Below the pieces are notes generated by a model that saw only the letters and a list, made by a program, of their open reading frames with translations, had not been told where the DNA came from and did not search any database. This document shows, piece by piece, positions 14,737-23,652 of a stretch of 51,936 nucleotides of DNA. Made by a program: the position numbers and the translations under genes. Each line of letters starts with the position of its first letter. Within the stretch, counting starts at the first letter, position 1. The DNA comes from Chitinophagales bacterium (GTDB lineage: Bacteria; Bacteroidota; Bacteroidia; Chitinophagales; UBA10324), in the NCBI GenBank assembly GCA_025057275.1, contig JANWXQ010000078.1, positions 1-51,936 of the forward strand. The letters run 5' to 3'.

Positions 14737-16206
14737 ATGAGTCCGCTGCTGATACTGGCTATCGTGTTGATTTATTTTTTATCGCTGCTGTGGGTGGCCC
14801 ATATTACCTCACGGGGTGCCGATGCTCATGCTTTTTTTATCGGCAGCCGGCAGTCGAGATGGTATGTGGTGGCATATGGCATGATCGGCACTTCCCTGAG
14901 CGGGGTCACCTTCGTCAGCGTGCCCGGTGAGGTAGGCATCAGGCAATGGTCGTACCTGCAGATTGTGCTGGGTTATTGGGCCGGCTATCTGGTGGTGGCG
15001 CTGGTGCTGTTGCCCCTGTATTACCGCCTTCAGCTCACATCCATATACACCTATCTGCAGCAGCGTTTCGGGCCGGTTACGTACCGTACGGGATCGTCGT
15101 TTTTTATCCTGTCCCGCACCTTGGGGGCCACAGCCCGGATTTTTTTGGTGGTCAACATGCTGCAGGTGTTCGTGCTGGATCCCCTGAATGTTCCGTTCAT
15201 GGTTACTGCATCCATTATTGTTTTCTTCATATTGCTGTATACGCTTCGGGGCGGGGTGAAAACGATCGTCTGGACCGACCTGATTCAAACCACCTGCATG
15301 CTGGCCGCCCTGGTGCTCACCATTGTGCTGATCCGAAACCGCCTGGGACTGGATTGGAGTGGCCTGATGGCCACATTGAGTCAATACGAGCTGACGCAAA
15401 CGTTTTTCTGGGACTGGCGCGACCGCAATTTCTTTTTCAAGCAATTTCTCAGCGGCATGTTCATCACCATAGCCATGACCGGACTGGATCAGGAAATGAT
15501 GCAAAAGAATCTGAGTTGCCGCAACCTAAAGGAAGCCCAGAAGAACATGTTTACGTTCAGCATGGTGCTGGTAGCCGTGAACTTGTTGTTTTTGCTGCTT
15601 GGGGCTACGTTGTACGCATACGTGTACGAAACAGGTCTTTCCGCACCGCAGCGATCGGACGATTTATTCCCCATGCTGGCTCTGCAGCATTTGGGTCAGG
15701 CGGCAGCGCTGGTTTTTCTGGTTGGACTTATCTCTGCCCTGTATCCTTCTGCTGACGGTGCGCTGACGGCTTTGACCAGCGCATTTTGCATTGACATCCT
15801 TGGCCTGCAAAATCGTACCGATCTGAGTGAAGCGGCCCGCACCCGCATCCGGTATATGGTGCATATTTCTTTTGCTGTCCTTTTCCTGTTGTGTCTGCTG
15901 GTGTTTCGTGTGGCCAACCAAACGGCCATCATTACCACCGTGCTCACTATTGCCGGTTACACCTATGGCCCGCTGCTGGGGCTCTATGCCTTTGGCATCT
16001 TTACGCGAAAATCCATTACCGACCGCTGGAGCTGGCTGGTTTGTGTGCTGGCCCCATTACTGAGTTATGTGATTAGCCTGAACTCGCAGCGATGGTTTTT
16101 TGGCTACCAACTGGGATTTGAGCTTTTGCTGGTGAACGCATTTCTGACGTTTTTTGGTCTTTGGCTGTTGGCATTAAAAAATGCACGGCCCCCCTCAGGC
16201 GTTTAA
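14737..16206 (+). CDS. sodium:solute symporter family protein
   Basis: The 489-residue protein is very hydrophobic, with about 13 predicted membrane helices, the usual number for the SSS family. Conserved stretches include SGVTFVSVPGEVGIRQWSYL near the start (unwound helix 1-2 region), a GGVKTIVWTDLIQ loop, and MTGLDQEMMQKNLSCRNLKEAQK in the middle, all typical of Bacteroidota SSS transporters. The family takes up sugars, amino acids or other small solutes with Na+. The substrate cannot be deduced. The next gene, an M23 peptidase, begins within 10 bases of its stop, suggesting co-transcription. Confidence 0.93.
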   Translation: MSPLLILAIVLIYFLSLLWVAHITSRGADAHAFFIGSRQSRWYVVAYGMIGTSLSGVTFVSVPGEVGIRQWSYLQIVLGYWAGYLVVALVLLPLYYRLQLTSIYTYLQQRFGPVTYRTGSSFFILSRTLGATARIFLVVNMLQVFVLDPLNVPFMVTASIIVFFILLYTLRGGVKTIVWTDLIQTTCMLAALVLTIVLIRNRLGLDWSGLMATLSQYELTQTFFWDWRDRNFFFKQFLSGMFITIAMTGLDQEMMQKNLSCRNLKEAQKNMFTFSMVLVAVNLLFLLLGATLYAYVYETGLSAPQRSDDLFPMLALQHLGQAAALVFLVGLISALYPSADGALTALTSAFCIDILGLQNRTDLSEAARTRIRYMVHISFAVLFLLCLLVFRVANQTAIITTVLTIAGYTYGPLLGLYAFGIFTRKSITDRWSWLVCVLAPLLSYVISLNSQRWFFGYQLGFELLLVNAFLTFFGLWLLALKNARPPSGV

Positions 16207-16213
16207 GCAGGCA

Positions 16214-17887
16214 ATGAGAAAATGGTTGTTGTGGTTGCTGTGGGCGGCCGTGCCGGCCTCTGCGCAAAAACCAGTTTTCCGCCACCCGCTGGATATTCCC
16301 ATTCAGCTTAGCTCGAATTTCGGAGAAATCCGCAGCGACCACTTTCACACGGGTTACGATTTCCGTACTCAGGGAAAGACAGGTTTTCCGGTATATGCTG
16401 CAGCCTCCGGCTTTGTATCTCGCATCAAAGTGTCGGCCACGGGCTTTGGTAAGGTGATTTACCTGATGCATCCGAATGGATACATGACCGTTTATGCCCA
16501 TCTGGACAGCTTTGCCCGGCCGGTAGCAGCGCTGATCCGCTCCGAACAATACCGAAGGCAATCGTTTGAGGTGGAAGTGTTTCCGGAGCCCGGCCGGTTT
16601 CCGGTGCAGCAGGGCGATCTGATCGGTTACAGCGGCAACAGCGGCACTTCATCAGGACCCCATCTGCATTTTGAAATCCGTGATGCCAGCGGAGAAAGCT
16701 TTCCGCTTAACCCCTACCCTTTTCTGCCCATTCCCGATAGCATGCCTCCGGTCATTTCCCGACTGTATGTTTATCCAATACGGCAGTTCTGTGAACCGGT
16801 CCAACCGCATTCGGCTGCCGTCAGCCGCAACAATGGCCGGCATCTGCTTGCCCCCGACTCCCTGATTACCCACTTCCCGGTTATCGGACTCGGCGTTCAG
16901 GTTAAGGATTTTTATGATGCATCACAGTCCGACCTGGGTGTTTACCGGCTGGAGCTGGAAGTAGATGATTCCGTTGTGTACGCCATGCAGCTGGATCGTC
17001 TGGTATTTGGCAATGGTCGTTACGTTAATGCGCACATTGATTACGGCGCTTTCCAGGACAGATCGGTTGTGGTGCAAAAGCTTTTTCGTGAGCCGGGAGA
17101 TCAAAACAGCATTTACCAGAGGGTGAAAAATTCCGGCTATGTGGATCTGAGCGACCGCCGGTGGCGCCTTGTAGTCATTCGGGCTGCTGATGCCTCGGGT
17201 AATAAATCGGTATTGCGCTTTCGTATCCGTTTTTCGGGAGCAGAGCAACCGCCGGCTGCCCTGCAGGGAGTTTGCGTGAAATTCCAGGAAGGTTACAAGT
17301 ACCGGAGCGACAGTGTCCGGGTAAATATTCCACCCGGAGCCTTATACCGCGATGCCGAATTTTTGGTTCGCCCCCTGAACCAGCGCAGCTTCTTTTCCGC
17401 CCGCTATCAGTTGGGCCATGCCCACATTCCTTTGCATCAGCCCATGGAAATTGCTTTGCTGCCGGCACGAACACTGCTTCAGAAAAAACAGTCCATGGTC
17501 GTGGTGCAGCTGAATAACGGCAAACCCAAGGCCCTTGCTTCACGCTGGGAGGACGGCTGGCTGGTGGCATCAGCAAGAAACTTCGGCACCTACACCATCA
17601 TGGCCGATACGCTGCAGCCCCTGATCCTGCCGCGAAACGTAAGCCAAAATCAGGCACTGTCCGGCCGTTATGTGCATTTCACCGTCCGCGACGATTTGAC
17701 GGGTATTACCTCGTATTCCGCTCATTTGAATGGTCAATGGGTCCTCATGGAGTATGACCCCAAAGAAGACCGGATGACCGTGGTGTTGGATGAGCCTTTG
17801 AAGGCCGGCAGGCATGTGCTGCGCCTTTCGGTTAGCGATGCCGTGCATAACCAGGCTACTTACGAACTTTCCTTCCTGAAAAAATAA
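16214..17887 (+). CDS. M23-family peptidase, exported
   Basis: The ATG at 16214 is chosen because it opens a signal peptide (MRKWLLWLLWAAVPASAQ); an earlier ATG at 16181 would overlap the symporter gene. The 557-residue protein has a LytM-type M23 domain with HFHTGYDF, giving the zinc ligands His and Asp, and SGTSSGPHLHFEIRD, giving the HxH pair. The catalytic residues are therefore intact. M23 enzymes cut peptidoglycan cross-bridges. The remaining 350 residues are beta-rich with no recognised catalytic motif, perhaps a substrate- or envelope-binding part. It is followed after 6 bases by bcp. Confidence 0.92.
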   Translation: MRKWLLWLLWAAVPASAQKPVFRHPLDIPIQLSSNFGEIRSDHFHTGYDFRTQGKTGFPVYAAASGFVSRIKVSATGFGKVIYLMHPNGYMTVYAHLDSFARPVAALIRSEQYRRQSFEVEVFPEPGRFPVQQGDLIGYSGNSGTSSGPHLHFEIRDASGESFPLNPYPFLPIPDSMPPVISRLYVYPIRQFCEPVQPHSAAVSRNNGRHLLAPDSLITHFPVIGLGVQVKDFYDASQSDLGVYRLELEVDDSVVYAMQLDRLVFGNGRYVNAHIDYGAFQDRSVVVQKLFREPGDQNSIYQRVKNSGYVDLSDRRWRLVVIRAADASGNKSVLRFRIRFSGAEQPPAALQGVCVKFQEGYKYRSDSVRVNIPPGALYRDAEFLVRPLNQRSFFSARYQLGHAHIPLHQPMEIALLPARTLLQKKQSMVVVQLNNGKPKALASRWEDGWLVASARNFGTYTIMADTLQPLILPRNVSQNQALSGRYVHFTVRDDLTGITSYSAHLNGQWVLMEYDPKEDRMTVVLDEPLKAGRHVLRLSVSDAVHNQATYELSFLKK

Positions 17888-17893
17888 ACCGTC

Positions 17894-18346
17894 ATGAAGT
17901 TGCAACCCGGTGACCCTGCCCCCGATTTTTCGGCAACAGATCAAAACGGCAATGAAATCCGGCTCAAAGATCTCAGGGGCAAAAAAGTCGTCCTTTACTT
18001 CTATCCGAAAGATTTTACACCTACCTGTACAGCTCAGGCCTGCAATCTGCGCGATCATCATGCCGAACTGGTGCGCAAAGGATATGTGGTGATTGGGGTC
18101 AGCCCGCAGGATGCGGAAACCCATAAGCGATTTGAACAAAAACACCAGCTTCCTTTTGCGTTGCTGGCAGACCCGGATAAAACCCTGATCAAAAAGTACG
18201 GGGTATGGGGAAAAAAGAACTTCATGGGCCGCAGCTTTATGGGTGTGCTTCGCACGACGTTTGTTATTAACGAAAAAGGCATTATAGAAAAAATTATTGA
18301 TCAGGTAAAGGCAAGTAACCATGCCGATCAGATCGTTTCATCATAA
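17894..18346 (+). CDS. bcp: thiol peroxidase Bcp (peroxiredoxin)
   Basis: The 150-residue product is a thioredoxin-dependent peroxiredoxin that reduces H2O2 and organic hydroperoxides in the cytoplasm. The peroxidatic cysteine is C45 in FTPTCTAQACN, and C50, the resolving cysteine of the BCP/PrxQ group, follows. The thioredoxin-fold features YFYPKD and GVSPQD are present, along with the C-terminal RTTFVINEKGII. It begins 6 bases after the M23 peptidase stop and therefore likely shares its transcript. Confidence 0.96.
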   Translation: MKLQPGDPAPDFSATDQNGNEIRLKDLRGKKVVLYFYPKDFTPTCTAQACNLRDHHAELVRKGYVVIGVSPQDAETHKRFEQKHQLPFALLADPDKTLIKKYGVWGKKNFMGRSFMGVLRTTFVINEKGIIEKIIDQVKASNHADQIVSS

Positions 18347-18419
18347 ATAAATTTTTATTAACGCGTCTTTATCGCCTGAAATCCAGTTGTAATAATTACC
18401 TTGCAGGCAAAATCGGTTT

Positions 18420-19280
18420 ATGAGATTACTCAAACCCTCGATCATTTTCCTGGCAATTGCCCCCTTGAGCATTCTGGTCGGTACGGTTTCCTACAACAAC
18501 GACCTGCAACCCCCCGGCAGCCGCACGGGCGCTCCCAGCGAGAGCACCTGCGGCGCTTCCAGTTGCCACAACAACACCCCGAACACTGGTCCCGGCAGTG
18601 TTTCGTTGACATTCAGCAATCCTTCGTTGAAATACACTCCCGGCGACACCTTTCAGATTACCGTCAAGGTCACCGACAACACCAAGACGAAATGGGGTTT
18701 TGAGCTGACTGCATTGAATGCCACGAACGATAGCACACCGGGCAAGTTCCTCAATGAAGCTTCCGGAATTCTGGTTTCTTTTCCCAATCCCATCTCTTCG
18801 CTGTCTAAACGCGAATATGTAGCACACCGCGATGCCAACACCGCTACCAGCCAATGGGTTATTAACTGGATCGCTCCTTCCACCAACATTGGTGACATTT
18901 GTTTTTATGCAGCCGGTAATGCCGCCAACAACAACGGAACCACATCCGGCGATAACATTTACACTGCTTCATTGTGCATATCACCGGAAACCGGTGTAGG
19001 CATTGCAGCCGTTTCCGATCAGTCGTCTCTCTTTTCCATAGATGCCATTCGCTGCCGGCAATTGTCGGTGACTTATCAGTTGGCAGAGCCCGCCACGGCG
19101 CGGTTTGTTTTAATGGATCTGTCGGGACGCATGCATGGCATGTTGCTTGAATCCGACGAACCGGCAGGGCAGCATAGCAGGACACTCTCGCTGCCCTCCT
19201 TTTTGCCGGGAGGGATTTATGTGCTGATCATGCAGGCTGCCGGTAATCAGTACGCTGCCAAATTTTATTACCAACCATGA
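18420..19280 (+). CDS. choice-of-anchor V-type exported protein with CX4CH motif and C-terminal T9SS tag
   Basis: The 286-residue protein has an N-terminal signal (RLLKPSIIFLAIAPLSILVG) followed by RTGAPSESTCGASSCHNN. The latter resembles the haem-like motif of the choice-of-anchor V domain, here with four residues between the cysteines (C44, C49, H50) instead of two. A beta-rich domain follows (about 55-200), with KWGFELTALN and a SQWVINWIAP segment. The last 75 residues form a type IX secretion sorting domain ending PGGIYVLIMQ...KFYYQP. It should be sent through the outer membrane. The following gene starts inside its stop codon (ATGA), so the two are translationally coupled. Confidence 0.75.
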   Translation: MRLLKPSIIFLAIAPLSILVGTVSYNNDLQPPGSRTGAPSESTCGASSCHNNTPNTGPGSVSLTFSNPSLKYTPGDTFQITVKVTDNTKTKWGFELTALNATNDSTPGKFLNEASGILVSFPNPISSLSKREYVAHRDANTATSQWVINWIAPSTNIGDICFYAAGNAANNNGTTSGDNIYTASLCISPETGVGIAAVSDQSSLFSIDAIRCRQLSVTYQLAEPATARFVLMDLSGRMHGMLLESDEPAGQHSRTLSLPSFLPGGIYVLIMQAAGNQYAAKFYYQP

Positions 19281-19690
19281 TGGTCAAACGCTGTTTTGGC
19301 TTTGAGCCGGCAGTTGCTTTTGGTATGCTGGCTTTTTTAGTCAGCTCATGCACCAGCGACGTCACGCCGGAGCCATCAGACACCAATTGCGTTGACAGTA
19401 CCCAGGTCATTTCCTACGTCAACGACATTGTGCCGATCATCAATACCTATTGCTCCAATCCCTCCTTTGGCGATTGCCATCAGCCGGGAGCCAGCAATCC
19501 CGATTTCACCAATTACGATGAGCTGAAGCTGCGGATTGAGGGCGGTGTTTTTCAGGATCGTGTTTTTGGTCCCTTTGCCACCGGTCAGCGCATGCCGCCG
19601 GCCTTCTGCACCGGTTGTCCGACCGAACTGGATGCTTGCGACAAGGAAATTCTCTTGCAATGGATTGACCAGGGATTCCCTAACAATTAA
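19277..19690 (+). CDS. cytochrome c-like lipoprotein with extended CX7CH motif
   Basis: The 137-residue protein carries a signal with lipobox (FLVSSC, cysteine 25). It then has DIVPIINTYCSNPSFGDCHQPG, which resembles the haem site of single-haem cytochromes and planctomycete-type cytochrome domains but with seven residues between C59 and C67-H68. A later RMPP (Met106) could be the second axial ligand. The C-terminal CDKEILLQWIDQGFPNN is typical of small c-type cytochromes. Haem binding is inferred: the motif spacing is non-standard, and C111/C114/C121 may form disulphides. It overlaps the preceding gene by four bases. Confidence 0.7.
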   Translation: MMVKRCFGFEPAVAFGMLAFLVSSCTSDVTPEPSDTNCVDSTQVISYVNDIVPIINTYCSNPSFGDCHQPGASNPDFTNYDELKLRIEGGVFQDRVFGPFATGQRMPPAFCTGCPTELDACDKEILLQWIDQGFPNN

Positions 19691-19722
19691 CTTTTTAGTC
19701 TGATTATTGAACCCAACACAAC

Positions 19723-20289
19723 ATGATGCTCACGGTTAAACGCTTGTCGCCGTTCGCGATGTTCATCAGCATAGCAGCCAGTTCACCATCAAGTTTTGCC
19801 CAAAAGGCCCATGTGGACAAGCAGGTGAACATTTCTTTTTTCTCAGAGGCTCCGTTAGAAAACATTGATGCCCATACCAAAAGCGCAGTAGGCGTCATTG
19901 ATATGAACACCGGAGCGGTTTTCTTTAAGGTTCCGATCAAAACCTTTACATTCAAAAAGGCCCTGATGCAGGAACACTTTAACGAAAACTATATGGAAAG
20001 CGACAAATACCCCCATGCCACACTGAAGGGACAAATCATTAACCTCCCTGACCCCAACAAAGATGGCACCTACAGCGTAACGGTTGAAGGGGACCTGACG
20101 ATACATGGCGTCACCCAAAAGCGGCAGATTCCCGGAACGCTCGTCATCAAAGGCAATGAGTTGCAGGTTACTTCCGAGTTTGATGTGCGGCTGGCTGATC
20201 ACAACATCACCATTCCCAAACTGGTTATCAAGAACATAGCAGAAGTGGTTCAGGTTAAGGTCAGCAGCACGCTGGTTCCTTCGCCATAA
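19723..20289 (+). CDS. YceI-family periplasmic lipocalin-like protein
   Basis: The 188-residue product has a signal peptide ending near ASSPSSFA and then a YceI fold: VNISFFSEAPLENIDAHTKSAVGVID, VFFKVPIKTFTFKKALMQEHFNENYMESDKYPHA and VEGDLTIHGVTQ. YceI proteins form a barrel that binds long isoprenoid or polyprenyl lipids in the periplasm; some act in quinone-like electron transfer or stress protection. It lies 32 bases after the haem-motif lipoprotein and before the DUF5777 barrel gene, which suggests one functional group. Confidence 0.93.
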   Translation: MMLTVKRLSPFAMFISIAASSPSSFAQKAHVDKQVNISFFSEAPLENIDAHTKSAVGVIDMNTGAVFFKVPIKTFTFKKALMQEHFNENYMESDKYPHATLKGQIINLPDPNKDGTYSVTVEGDLTIHGVTQKRQIPGTLVIKGNELQVTSEFDVRLADHNITIPKLVIKNIAEVVQVKVSSTLVPSP

Positions 20290-20335
20290 TTCGTGGCCAA
20301 TGGTCCGATGGAAATTGCCTAAACCGTTCGGGGTT

Positions 20336-20343
20336 TATTTTCG
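20336..20343 (+). promoter_or_regulatory. candidate -7 box for the DUF5777 gene
   Basis: The sequence TATTTTCG lies 11 bases before the ATG at 20355, with a TTG 18 bases upstream. The same octamer occurs close to the starts of asnB-like and lpxD-like genes. It could be a secondary promoter inside the cassette. Confidence 0.3.
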
Positions 20344-20354
20344 TAATTCGCTTC

Positions 20355-21308
20355 ATGCATTCGTTTATGAAAAGCCTTTTACTTCCCGTTTTGCTTCTGT
20401 ACAGCACTTGGATTTGGGCGCAGGACGACCTTGCTGCCCTGGCCGAGGAGCTGGTCCCTAAAGAATCGGAGCCTGTACTGGCCACTTTCAAAGCCTTTCG
20501 GCTTATCAATGCCCAGACCAATGAAACGGCCAAAGAGCGCAACCTGCATTTTAACATAGCCCACCGGTTTGGCACCGTGTTCACCGATGGTCAGCTGAAC
20601 GTGCACAGTTTTTTCGGGCTGGATCAGGCGCCAGATATCCGTTTTTCCTTTGACTATGGAGTAACCGACCGTTTGCAGTTAGGCGTAGGTCGCTCCAAGG
20701 GACTGGAACCTTACACCGAGCTGTACGATGGTAACGCAAAATACCGGCTGCTTTGGCAAACCACGGATGACCGTATTCCGGTCAGCATTACGCTGTACGG
20801 TGTTGCAGCCGTAACCGGCAGAAAGTCCTCATCGGATCCTTCATCCGATGCCTACTATCAGGATCGCTTCGCCCATCGTTGGTCGTATGTAAGCCAGGCC
20901 ATCATTGCCCGGAAATTTTCTCCCGGAGCTTCGCTCATGCTCTTGCCCACGTGGACCCATCGCAACTACGTGTACTACAAAGATGAAAATGACATGTTTT
21001 CGTTGGGTATCGGCGGCCGCATTAAGGTTTCCAACCGAACAGCTTTAATTGCAGATTATTTCTATAACTTCAGTGAGTACCGACGTCAGGAAAAAGATGA
21101 TGCCGGCGACCTGATATTCAGCAATCCGCTCAGCCTGGGTGTAGAGTTTGAAACCGGAGGCCATGTGTTCGCGCTGATGTTTACCAACGCAGCAGGTATT
21201 TTGGAAAATTCCTTTTTGCCCGCCACCAAAAGCAGTTGGGCCGATGGCGAATTTCGCTGGGGGTTCAACCTTACCCGCAATTTTGTGCTGGGCAGGAAAG
21301 ACTGGTAG
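20355..21308 (+). CDS. DUF5777 family outer-membrane beta-barrel protein
   Basis: The 317-residue product has a signal peptide (start at 20355 or at the ATG 12 bases later; LLLPVLLLYSTWIWAQ). It has the DUF5777 features LINAQTNETAKERNLHFNIAHRFG and DIRFSFDYGVTDRLQLGVGRSK, followed by alternating amphipathic strands ending in a phenylalanine/tryptophan-rich C-terminus. Members are uncharacterised barrels often found next to YceI and cytochrome-like genes in Bacteroidota. The arrangement here agrees and suggests it is the outer-membrane component of the cassette. Confidence 0.85.
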   Translation: MHSFMKSLLLPVLLLYSTWIWAQDDLAALAEELVPKESEPVLATFKAFRLINAQTNETAKERNLHFNIAHRFGTVFTDGQLNVHSFFGLDQAPDIRFSFDYGVTDRLQLGVGRSKGLEPYTELYDGNAKYRLLWQTTDDRIPVSITLYGVAAVTGRKSSSDPSSDAYYQDRFAHRWSYVSQAIIARKFSPGASLMLLPTWTHRNYVYYKDENDMFSLGIGGRIKVSNRTALIADYFYNFSEYRRQEKDDAGDLIFSNPLSLGVEFETGGHVFALMFTNAAGILENSFLPATKSSWADGEFRWGFNLTRNFVLGRKDW

Positions 21309-21334
21309 GAACGCAGTTTTTGGTTGATCGGTTC

Positions 21335-22123
21335 ATGGTCATACCGTTACATGAAGGGACTTTTACGGTTGACCATTCCAAACAGTTTATTCCATTCCAT
21401 CGACATACCGACCATCTGGAGCAACGGCCTCCGGGTTCGTTGCTGGTGGATATTGTTAGTTTTCTGGTGGTGGCCCCTGGTATCCTGGCTGTAGTGGATC
21501 CGGGTCTGGGCACCGGAACAGAAGAAGCCTGGATTCGCCGCGCTGTGCGTGCCCGGGGCTACGACCCTGAACAGGTTACCCATGTGCTCCTGAGTCATTT
21601 GCATAAGGATCACGCAGGAGGAGCCGTTTGGCCTGACGGTCAAGGCTGGCAACTGACTTTTCCTGCAGCAAGCTATTATGTTCAGAATAAAGAATTTGCT
21701 TATGCATTCAGTAAAAGCGCCAGCCGCTCTTATCGGTTTGAGGCTTTGGCATTTCTGTACGATCATCCTCAGCGGGTACGGTTTGACGGAGCTGCACGGA
21801 TCGGAGACTGGCTGGAAATAGAAGTCAGCGGCGGACATACGCCGCATCATCAATGTTTTCATTTTTACCTGAGCAACGAACATTATTTTTTCGGAGGGGA
21901 TGTGGCAGCACAATCCGGGCAGCTGCTGCGCCGGTTTCTGGCTAAATACGATGCAGATGCTGCACGAAGCCAGCATCTGCGCGAACAGTGGGCGCATCGC
22001 GGCGCTGAACAAGGTTGGAAGTTCTTGTTTTTTCATGATGCTCAGAAGACAATAGTTACCCTGAGGCACAGGGAAAACAGACCGGAACTGGCATCGTTTG
22101 TTCCGGCTGAAGGCCCGGCGTAA
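21335..22123 (+). CDS. metallo-beta-lactamase-fold hydrolase
   Basis: The ATG at 21335 is preferred: a more upstream ATG would run through the 3' end of the DUF5777 gene. The 262-residue protein has the MBL-fold signature SHLHKDHAGG at 87-96 (H88, H90, D92, H93), an upstream VVDPG segment, a GGHTPHHQ loop supplying a further His, and FFGGD. It also has a long internal helical insertion. Members act on lactones, thioesters, phosphodiesters and other substrates. No signal peptide is seen, so it is probably cytoplasmic. The substrate is unknown. It sits 26 bases after the DUF5777 gene on the same strand. Confidence 0.9.
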   Translation: MVIPLHEGTFTVDHSKQFIPFHRHTDHLEQRPPGSLLVDIVSFLVVAPGILAVVDPGLGTGTEEAWIRRAVRARGYDPEQVTHVLLSHLHKDHAGGAVWPDGQGWQLTFPAASYYVQNKEFAYAFSKSASRSYRFEALAFLYDHPQRVRFDGAARIGDWLEIEVSGGHTPHHQCFHFYLSNEHYFFGGDVAAQSGQLLRRFLAKYDADAARSQHLREQWAHRGAEQGWKFLFFHDAQKTIVTLRHRENRPELASFVPAEGPA

Positions 22124-22230
22124 AAAGCAATTCTGCAGACAGATTTTGTGGCTTCGCCGGCATTCGCGAACCACGTAACTTTAACCTCATGTTCAGTGCG
22201 GAGGAAGGTACCATCGTCTTTCTGCGGGAG

Positions 22231-23652
22231 ATGGATTTCGTTCTTCTTCCTATCTATCTTTTTTTCCTGCTTTTGTTTGCTGTTTTGTATCGAAACATCA
22301 AATACCGGAACACTACGGTCAAACAGTATTTTATGCCCGGACTGCTGGTTAAAATTTTCGGGGCATTGCTGTTGATGGTTATATATGGTTTTTATTATAA
22401 AGGAGGGGATACATTTTATTATTTCTACGATTCAAAAGCATTTAACAATGCCATCGGGCAATCGCTGAAATCGTTCTTTGACCTGCTGTTTTTGCCGGCC
22501 GGAAAGATCACGCTGGCAACCTATGAACATACCCGATGGCTGACTTTTTTCCGGGATACTTCTACCTGGACGGCAGATAAGGTCTATGGCGTGCTCAGCG
22601 TGCTGAGTTTTCATTCTTATCCCGTTATGAGTATTCTGATGGCGTTTCTTTCCTTCACCGGCGTCTGGGCTATGTATTTGACTTTTGTTTATTTATATCC
22701 AGCGCTGCATCGCCAGCTGGCGTTTTGCTTTTTGTTTGTTCCATCGGTGTTTTTCTGGGGTTCAGGCATTTTGAAAGACAGCATAACCCTGGGCAGTTTG
22801 GGTTGGGTGGTGTACACCAGCCATCAGATTTTTTTCAGACGCAGAAAAGTTCTGCGTAATGTTTTGATCCTCGTGCTGACCAGTTATCTGGCCTTGAATA
22901 TTAAGGCCTATATTCTGATTAGTTTTTTGCCTGCGTTGATGTTCTGGTTGTTTTTGTCTTACCGGTCCATGATTGGCGTCAAGTTTATTCGCGTGATCTC
23001 CGGCCCAGCCATCACCCTGGTGGCCATTGTGTTTGGTTATTTTCTGATCAAACGCATAGGGCAGGAATTCACGCAGTTTTCTTTAGGCAATGTGTTAACC
23101 ACAGCGCAGACCTTTCACCGTTGGCATGGGTACTTATCTGAAGCCGAGCGGGCTTCGGGCTATTCGCTGGGAGAAGTGGACGGCTCCTGGCAGAGCGTGT
23201 TGTTCAAGCTTCCGGCAGCAGTAAACGTTACGTTGTTTCGCCCCTACCTGTGGGAGGCGCGCAGTGTGATCATGCTGTTTTCTTCGATTGAAAGCCTCAT
23301 CTTGCTGTCCATTACCATTATGGTCATCTGGAAGAACGGCCTTCGCAACGTGCTGAATCATGCCATATCCAATCCGACGGTTTTCTTTTGTTTTGTTTTT
23401 TCTCTGGTATTTGCTTTTGCCGTCGGTTTCACCAGTTACAATTTTGGTGCCCTTGTGCGGTATAAGATTCCCTGTATTCCGTTTTTTCTGGCCGGACTGG
23501 TTATTCTGCATCACATCTGTTCAGCAGAGCGCGAGCGGAAATACGTTGAGGAATTGAAGCGACAATCCGCACGTGCAAACAGATACAAATCAGCAGCTGG
23601 CAGCACCTTAAGCCACGAAGCTAAACCCGAAGCAAAAGCTCCAGCCATTTAG
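22231..23652 (+). CDS. polytopic membrane protein of a polysaccharide locus, unknown family
   Basis: The product has about 473 residues from the ATG at 22231 (an in-frame ATG at 22189 adds 14 polar residues). It has roughly 10-12 hydrophobic helices, a large loop with YKGGDTFYYFYDSKAF after the second helix, and the phrase PSVFFWGSGILKDSIT. A charged, coiled C-terminal tail follows. The topology and location next to glycosyltransferases resemble O-antigen/exopolysaccharide polymerases or other lipid-glycan enzymes, but no recognised motif proves this. Its end overlaps the convergent glycosyltransferase gene by 32 bases. Confidence 0.75.
   Translation: MDFVLLPIYLFFLLLFAVLYRNIKYRNTTVKQYFMPGLLVKIFGALLLMVIYGFYYKGGDTFYYFYDSKAFNNAIGQSLKSFFDLLFLPAGKITLATYEHTRWLTFFRDTSTWTADKVYGVLSVLSFHSYPVMSILMAFLSFTGVWAMYLTFVYLYPALHRQLAFCFLFVPSVFFWGSGILKDSITLGSLGWVVYTSHQIFFRRRKVLRNVLILVLTSYLALNIKAYILISFLPALMFWLFLSYRSMIGVKFIRVISGPAITLVAIVFGYFLIKRIGQEFTQFSLGNVLTTAQTFHRWHGYLSEAERASGYSLGEVDGSWQSVLFKLPAAVNVTLFRPYLWEARSVIMLFSSIESLILLSITIMVIWKNGLRNVLNHAISNPTVFFCFVFSLVFAFAVGFTSYNFGALVRYKIPCIPFFLAGLVILHHICSAERERKYVEELKRQSARANRYKSAAGSTLSHEAKPEAKAPAI

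Follow-up and report, generated by a model that had tools for sequence, protein, structure and literature searches.

A conserved cytochrome lipoprotein, YceI and DUF5777 gene cassette suggests a possible new electron-handling system of the Bacteroidota cell envelope

Ubiquinone-8 or octaprenyl compounds have been recovered with YceI-family proteins, and in Burkholderia the YceI lipocalin BcnA has a genetic link to LcoA, an electron carrier with haem, quinone being proposed as their shared cofactor (PMC9113575). In porin-cytochrome conduits of the Mtr/Pio type, a large outer-membrane porin encloses a multihaem cytochrome. Here, we describe a cassette of four genes (products P1 to P4, listed below) from a Chitinophagales bacterium, lying in a 51,936-nucleotide stretch of DNA that was analysed as a whole and is called the window. 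Like BcnA-LcoA, the cassette pairs a YceI lipocalin with a predicted haem electron carrier, but LcoA is an inner-membrane cytochrome b561, whereas the carrier here is a putative outer-membrane c-type cytochrome or, at related loci, a Rieske protein or cupredoxin, and a DUF5777 barrel is present as well; the named genes around the window cassette include no cytochrome b561 (scan of genes 14737-23649). Like the porin-cytochrome conduits, it combines a barrel and a cytochrome at the outer membrane, but the carriers are predicted to be monohaem and the barrel belongs to a different family; no multihaem cytochrome is present in the cassette, in which P1 and P2 have one C-Xn-CH motif each and P4 has none. 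Because a defining feature of each class was looked for and is absent here, we place the cassette outside both. Its parts are known families, and their combination appears undescribed in the literature searched, which agrees with the first-pass annotation of this DNA. The cassette, its candidate ligands and its flanking genes are as follows:

17894-18346, + strand, PrxQ-type thiol peroxidase, upstream neighbour (NF006960, E 7.7e-52)
18420-19280, + strand, P1, secreted protein of the choice-of-anchor V family, Reeler fold, T9SS tail at the C terminus (NF041895)
18549-18569, + strand, P1 C-X4-CH motif (C44, C49, H50), residues 44-50 CGASSCH
18825-18827, + strand, P1 His136 of YxxH, candidate distal ligand (22 homologues, conservation at least 90%)
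19277-19690, + strand, P2, lipoprotein, monohaem c-type cytochrome by sequence, C-X7-CH site
19451-19480, + strand, P2 C-X7-CH motif (C59, C67, H68), residues 59-68 CSNPSFGDCH
19592-19594, + strand, P2 Met106 (MPP), candidate axial ligand, invariant in 63 homologues
19723-20289, + strand, P3, YceI-family periplasmic lipocalin (polyisoprenoid/quinone-binding family), PF04264
20355-21308, + strand, P4, DUF5777 outer-membrane beta barrel, PF19089
20562-20564, + strand, P4 His70, invariant in 74 of 74 homologues
21162-21164, + strand, P4 His270 (TGGH), present in 73 of 74 homologues, the remaining one having a gap
21344-22123, + strand, MBL-fold hydrolase, downstream neighbour (PF00753, E 1.3e-21)

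The four consecutive open reading frames at 18420-21308, the ATGA coupling of the first two (19277-19280, where the P1 stop overlaps the P2 start), the cysteine-histidine motifs of P1 and P2 and the YceI and DUF5777 assignments had all been read from the sequence in the first-pass annotation, and each was borne out. About 32 nt separate P2 from P3, and about 65 nt separate P3 from P4, so that the genes are packed as in an operon. The PrxQ gene holds the same upstream position in relatives (L032-L036, L039, L041, L048), and the MBL-fold hydrolase is retained downstream within the family. Scans for consensus promoters and terminators gave nothing useful, and counts of the CXXCH pattern across the genome were too noisy for use.

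P2 lacks the canonical CXXCH spacing, having CX7CH instead, and the window protein alone matched no Pfam family, including at the PSCyt1 and Cytochrome_CBB3 cut-offs. Its homologues (n=63) match Cytochrome_CBB3, PSCyt1, PccH and Haem_bd, with 13 reaching E 0.01 or better against PSCyt1 and 20 against Cytochrome_CBB3. The lipobox Cys, C59, C67, H68, M106, P107 and W129 are invariant in the alignment, and together with the model this gives class I-like c-type features: C-Xn-CH, then an axial Met and a C-terminal helix. Against the PDB, the family profile matches both haem domains of the iron oxidoreductase FoxE (5mab, E 2.6e-9; CXXCH, an MPP-type Met and a W-containing C-terminal helix) and the Geobacter monohaem cytochrome PccH (4rlr, E 3.7e-5). 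FoxE is dihaem with CXXCH sites, whereas P2 would be a monohaem lipoprotein with CX7CH, and P2 differs from PccH in haem spacer and gene context. The AF2 model of P2 (pLDDT 86.8), in which N- and C-terminal helices are present, had PccH as its sole VIA structural match (Z 7.6 over 81 residues, a Z below 8 being weak when taken alone) and no significant match in Foldseek.

The Cys-Cys spacer in the P2 family is 2 residues in 25 sequences, 4 in 24 and 7 in 10, with 3, 5, 8 and 10 found once each. When the spacer columns are left out of the tree, 11 of the 12 sequences with a spacer of at least 7, the window P2 included, form one clade (support 92/86) nested in a 22-row group (99/98) whose other spacers are 4 and 5, and two changes suffice to explain long versus short spacers. 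The long spacers thus arose within a CX4CH clade, which makes CX7CH a later insertion into a functional family of cytochromes and not a random pair of cysteines. A plain disulphide was rejected for the P2 cysteines because His and Met are invariant alongside them. As far as alignment and profile matches can tell, the P2 family is one of monohaem c-type cytochrome lipoproteins, and the first-pass comparison of its motif to c-type haem sites stands. Covalent haem at the CX7CH site itself is putative, and we know of no demonstration of haem c on such a site. The genome encodes CcmF (PF16327) and a CcmC-like protein, so System I c-type maturation exists in this organism.

P3 matches YceI (PF04264) with E 2.2e-14 and 54.5 bits (cut-off 23.7), and by analogy with the known ligands of its family it may be a quinone carrier. 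P4 matches DUF5777 (PF19089) with E 2e-87 and 293 bits (cut-off 23.1) and has a dN/dS of 0.04; dN/dS was unusable for the other cassette genes because dS is saturated. DUF5777, a family with no function assigned, occurs in 112 of the 296 Bacteroidota genomes sampled, and no paper on it by name was found in the literature searched.

To describe gene neighbourhoods, 60 DUF5777 loci were drawn over the Bacteroidota and proximity was set at 4 kb. YceI lies within this distance of DUF5777 at 53 loci and a P2 homologue at 48; at about four YceI copies per 4-Mb genome, the chance expectation for YceI is below 1%, so these families co-occur in other genomes above chance. Of 55 YceI-DUF5777 pairs, 53 share a strand, and the two genes are mostly less than 60 nt apart, often with an ATGA overlap. 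By our count, some redox carrier is near DUF5777 at 56 loci, mostly a P2-type cytochrome and otherwise a Rieske protein or cupredoxin, and none was found at four (L086, L088, L092, L106). Rieske lipoproteins occur at 7 of the 60 loci and cupredoxins at 3 (L059, L069, L097), several of them in the place of P2, and the Rieske and plastocyanin substitutes are backed by Pfam. A cupredoxin identity was rejected for two members of cluster c11 (L065, L074), which do not resemble these proteins. This exchange of carriers at other loci marks the neighbourhood as redox and, with the c-type character of the P2 family, supports the redox half of the first-pass hypothesis.

The order P1-P2-P3-P4 recurs in relatives belonging to the family of the window or to two further ones, within a block that also holds a symporter, an M23 peptidase and PrxQ (at L034 and L037 the contig stops within or before P4). 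Outside these P1-bearing relatives the core is P2-YceI-DUF5777, as in the named cultured relative Sunxiuqinia dokdonensis (single-protein search), where the next gene after it resembles an RNA polymerase sigma factor. At variant loci from one family of the order (L040, L043, L047, L051), a dihaem cytochrome c is present as well. A genuine choice-of-anchor V protein was near DUF5777 at just one of the 60 loci (L093), the remaining P1 labels in this sample being T9SS-tail or Temptin-type matches, and the four-gene set was rejected as the conserved unit. The four-family cassette of the first-pass annotation is therefore upheld for P2-YceI-DUF5777, which is conserved across the Bacteroidota, and not for P1, which is mainly confined to the window's own lineage and is a lineage-specific addition; the four-gene make-up is thus one variant of a wider module. 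Sigma-factor-like and anti-sigma-like genes, assigned by eye, adjoin DUF5777 in Sunxiuqinia (L134:8066-9921) and at several of the loci L052-L111.

P1 matches the choice-of-anchor V family (NF041895 choice_anch_V) with E 3.6e-25 and 88.8 bits (cut-off 42). Its T9SS tail is weak in the window protein (E 0.0072, 16.3 bits, below the cut-off of 23) and is detected in 12 of 12 aligned family members. The AF2 model (pLDDT 78) shows a Reeler fold, matching F-spondin with Z 12.6, and then a beta domain resembling the PorU C-terminal domain. P1 is like the Reeler domain of F-spondin and choice-of-anchor V proteins in fold and family, and unlike them in its added N-terminal C-X4-CH segment and T9SS tail; no literature joining choice-of-anchor with CXXCH or Reeler was found. 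Among 22 homologues C44 and H50 are invariant, C49 is at least 90% conserved and the Cys-Cys spacer is 1, 2, 4 or 5, and the second Cys is missing from one copy of the cassette (L034). These residues make haem on P1, with H136 as candidate distal ligand, plausible, and the motif may hold another metal. Cytochrome f was considered as a candidate relative of P1: its structure aligned to the P1 model with Z 11.7, but the P1 profile gave just weak cytochrome c motif matches. Six choice-of-anchor V relatives (L114, L116, L117, L119, L120, L124) carry C-X-CH (CTCH, CSCH) and a conserved T-H at the position of the P1 YxxH.

Taken together, the association of P2, YceI and DUF5777 suggests that the cell envelope holds a system for handling electrons that has so far gone undescribed. 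Our best reading, to which we assign a probability of roughly 50%, is a Bacteroidota redox module linking quinone and a high-potential carrier at the outer membrane. By analogy with YceI ligands and BcnA-LcoA (PMC9113575), P3 would ferry an isoprenoid quinone through the periplasm and swap single electrons with P2, a monohaem cytochrome presumably lipid-anchored in the outer membrane, while the P4 barrel would be a docking or transfer point for both. The conserved histidines of P4 may bind a cofactor, quinone or metal, and the window lineage would have gained P1 as a T9SS-exported, putatively haem-binding surface protein. From general potentials, the carrier of high potential would most likely be the acceptor, and quinol or some other reductant the donor. 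The cassette contains no inner-membrane quinol oxidoreductase, and YceI proteins are common and may carry non-redox lipids; both points count against this reading, as do the four loci where YceI and DUF5777 stand together but no redox carrier was found and the lack of a significant Foldseek match for the P2 model. A fuller version, a phylum-wide and hitherto undescribed electron path crossing the outer membrane, in which interchangeable monohaem, Rieske or copper lipoproteins act with a quinone-carrying YceI and a His-bearing DUF5777, and which here would end in a surface cytochrome exported by T9SS and rely on CX7CH for its haem c, we regard as quite doubtful.

The main rival, though one we hold to be somewhat unlikely, is an antioxidant role like that proposed for BcnA-LcoA, in which P2, or the Rieske protein or cupredoxin, would hold YceI-bound quinone in a protective redox state against peroxyl radicals on outer-membrane lipids, with the barrel as docking partner. 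BcnA (YceI) and LcoA (cytochrome b561) guard against lipid peroxyl radicals (PMC9113575), and the PrxQ thiol peroxidase is a fixed upstream neighbour in the window lineage, although at most other loci it lies away from DUF5777. The ECF sigma/anti-sigma genes seen by eye beside several loci, including Sunxiuqinia, suggest stress control. Met-ligated cytochromes and Rieske proteins, however, are high-potential carriers and poor reductants for quinone. Less probable still is the trans-membrane half of the first-pass hypothesis, a conduit through the outer membrane in which electrons would move between an inner P2 and an outer P1, through or alongside DUF5777, and be exchanged with a partner outside the cell, for example iron. 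The anatomy would suit it, with a lipoprotein cytochrome, a barrel and a T9SS surface protein bearing C-Xn-CH and a conserved candidate distal His, as would the likeness of P2 to FoxE and PccH and the dihaem cytochrome c of the variant loci. Yet such a conduit would have to work with single haems and no multihaem wire, a surface partner of P1's kind is missing from most loci, and the genome itself is not known to respire minerals; the haem of P1 is also putative, its distant relatives having CXCH and the L034 copy lacking one Cys.

It is very improbable that the operon is coincidental or non-redox, with the cysteines of P1 and P2 forming disulphides and the cassette handling isoprenoid lipids or cell-surface assembly. 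P2 spacers of 7-10 do fall outside the well-known haem motifs, the YceI family binds lipids and the Reeler domain of P1 is a fold of adhesive proteins, but His and Met are kept with the cysteines in 63 of 63 P2 homologues, 25 of which have an ordinary CXXCH, and the substitutes for P2 are other redox proteins only. A constant YceI and a swappable redox carrier beside DUF5777 provide a first testable role for this barrel family. The P2 family also offers a natural CX2CH to CX10CH haem-motif series in one fold, with which the spacing tolerated by c-type maturation can be probed, and P1, if it carries haem, would be a case of a c-type protein that the type IX system delivers to the cell surface.

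Three further features were observed. At 15 of the 60 loci (e.g. L055:7457-7876), P2-YceI-DUF5777 contains or adjoins a gene for a small protein of the OB fold (PF12869, tRNA_anti-like) that is hydrophobic near its N terminus. Within the window, a Cytochrome P460 lipoprotein (PF16694, E 3.4e-31) with a CFNCH haem motif is encoded at 1482-1994 on the - strand, 16 kb off the cassette. T9SS proteins with an N-terminal CXXCH are found directly 3' of DUF5777 at three loci (L099:6797-8431, L103:6729-8354, L105:4400-6046), and the one at L099 matches Temptin_C.
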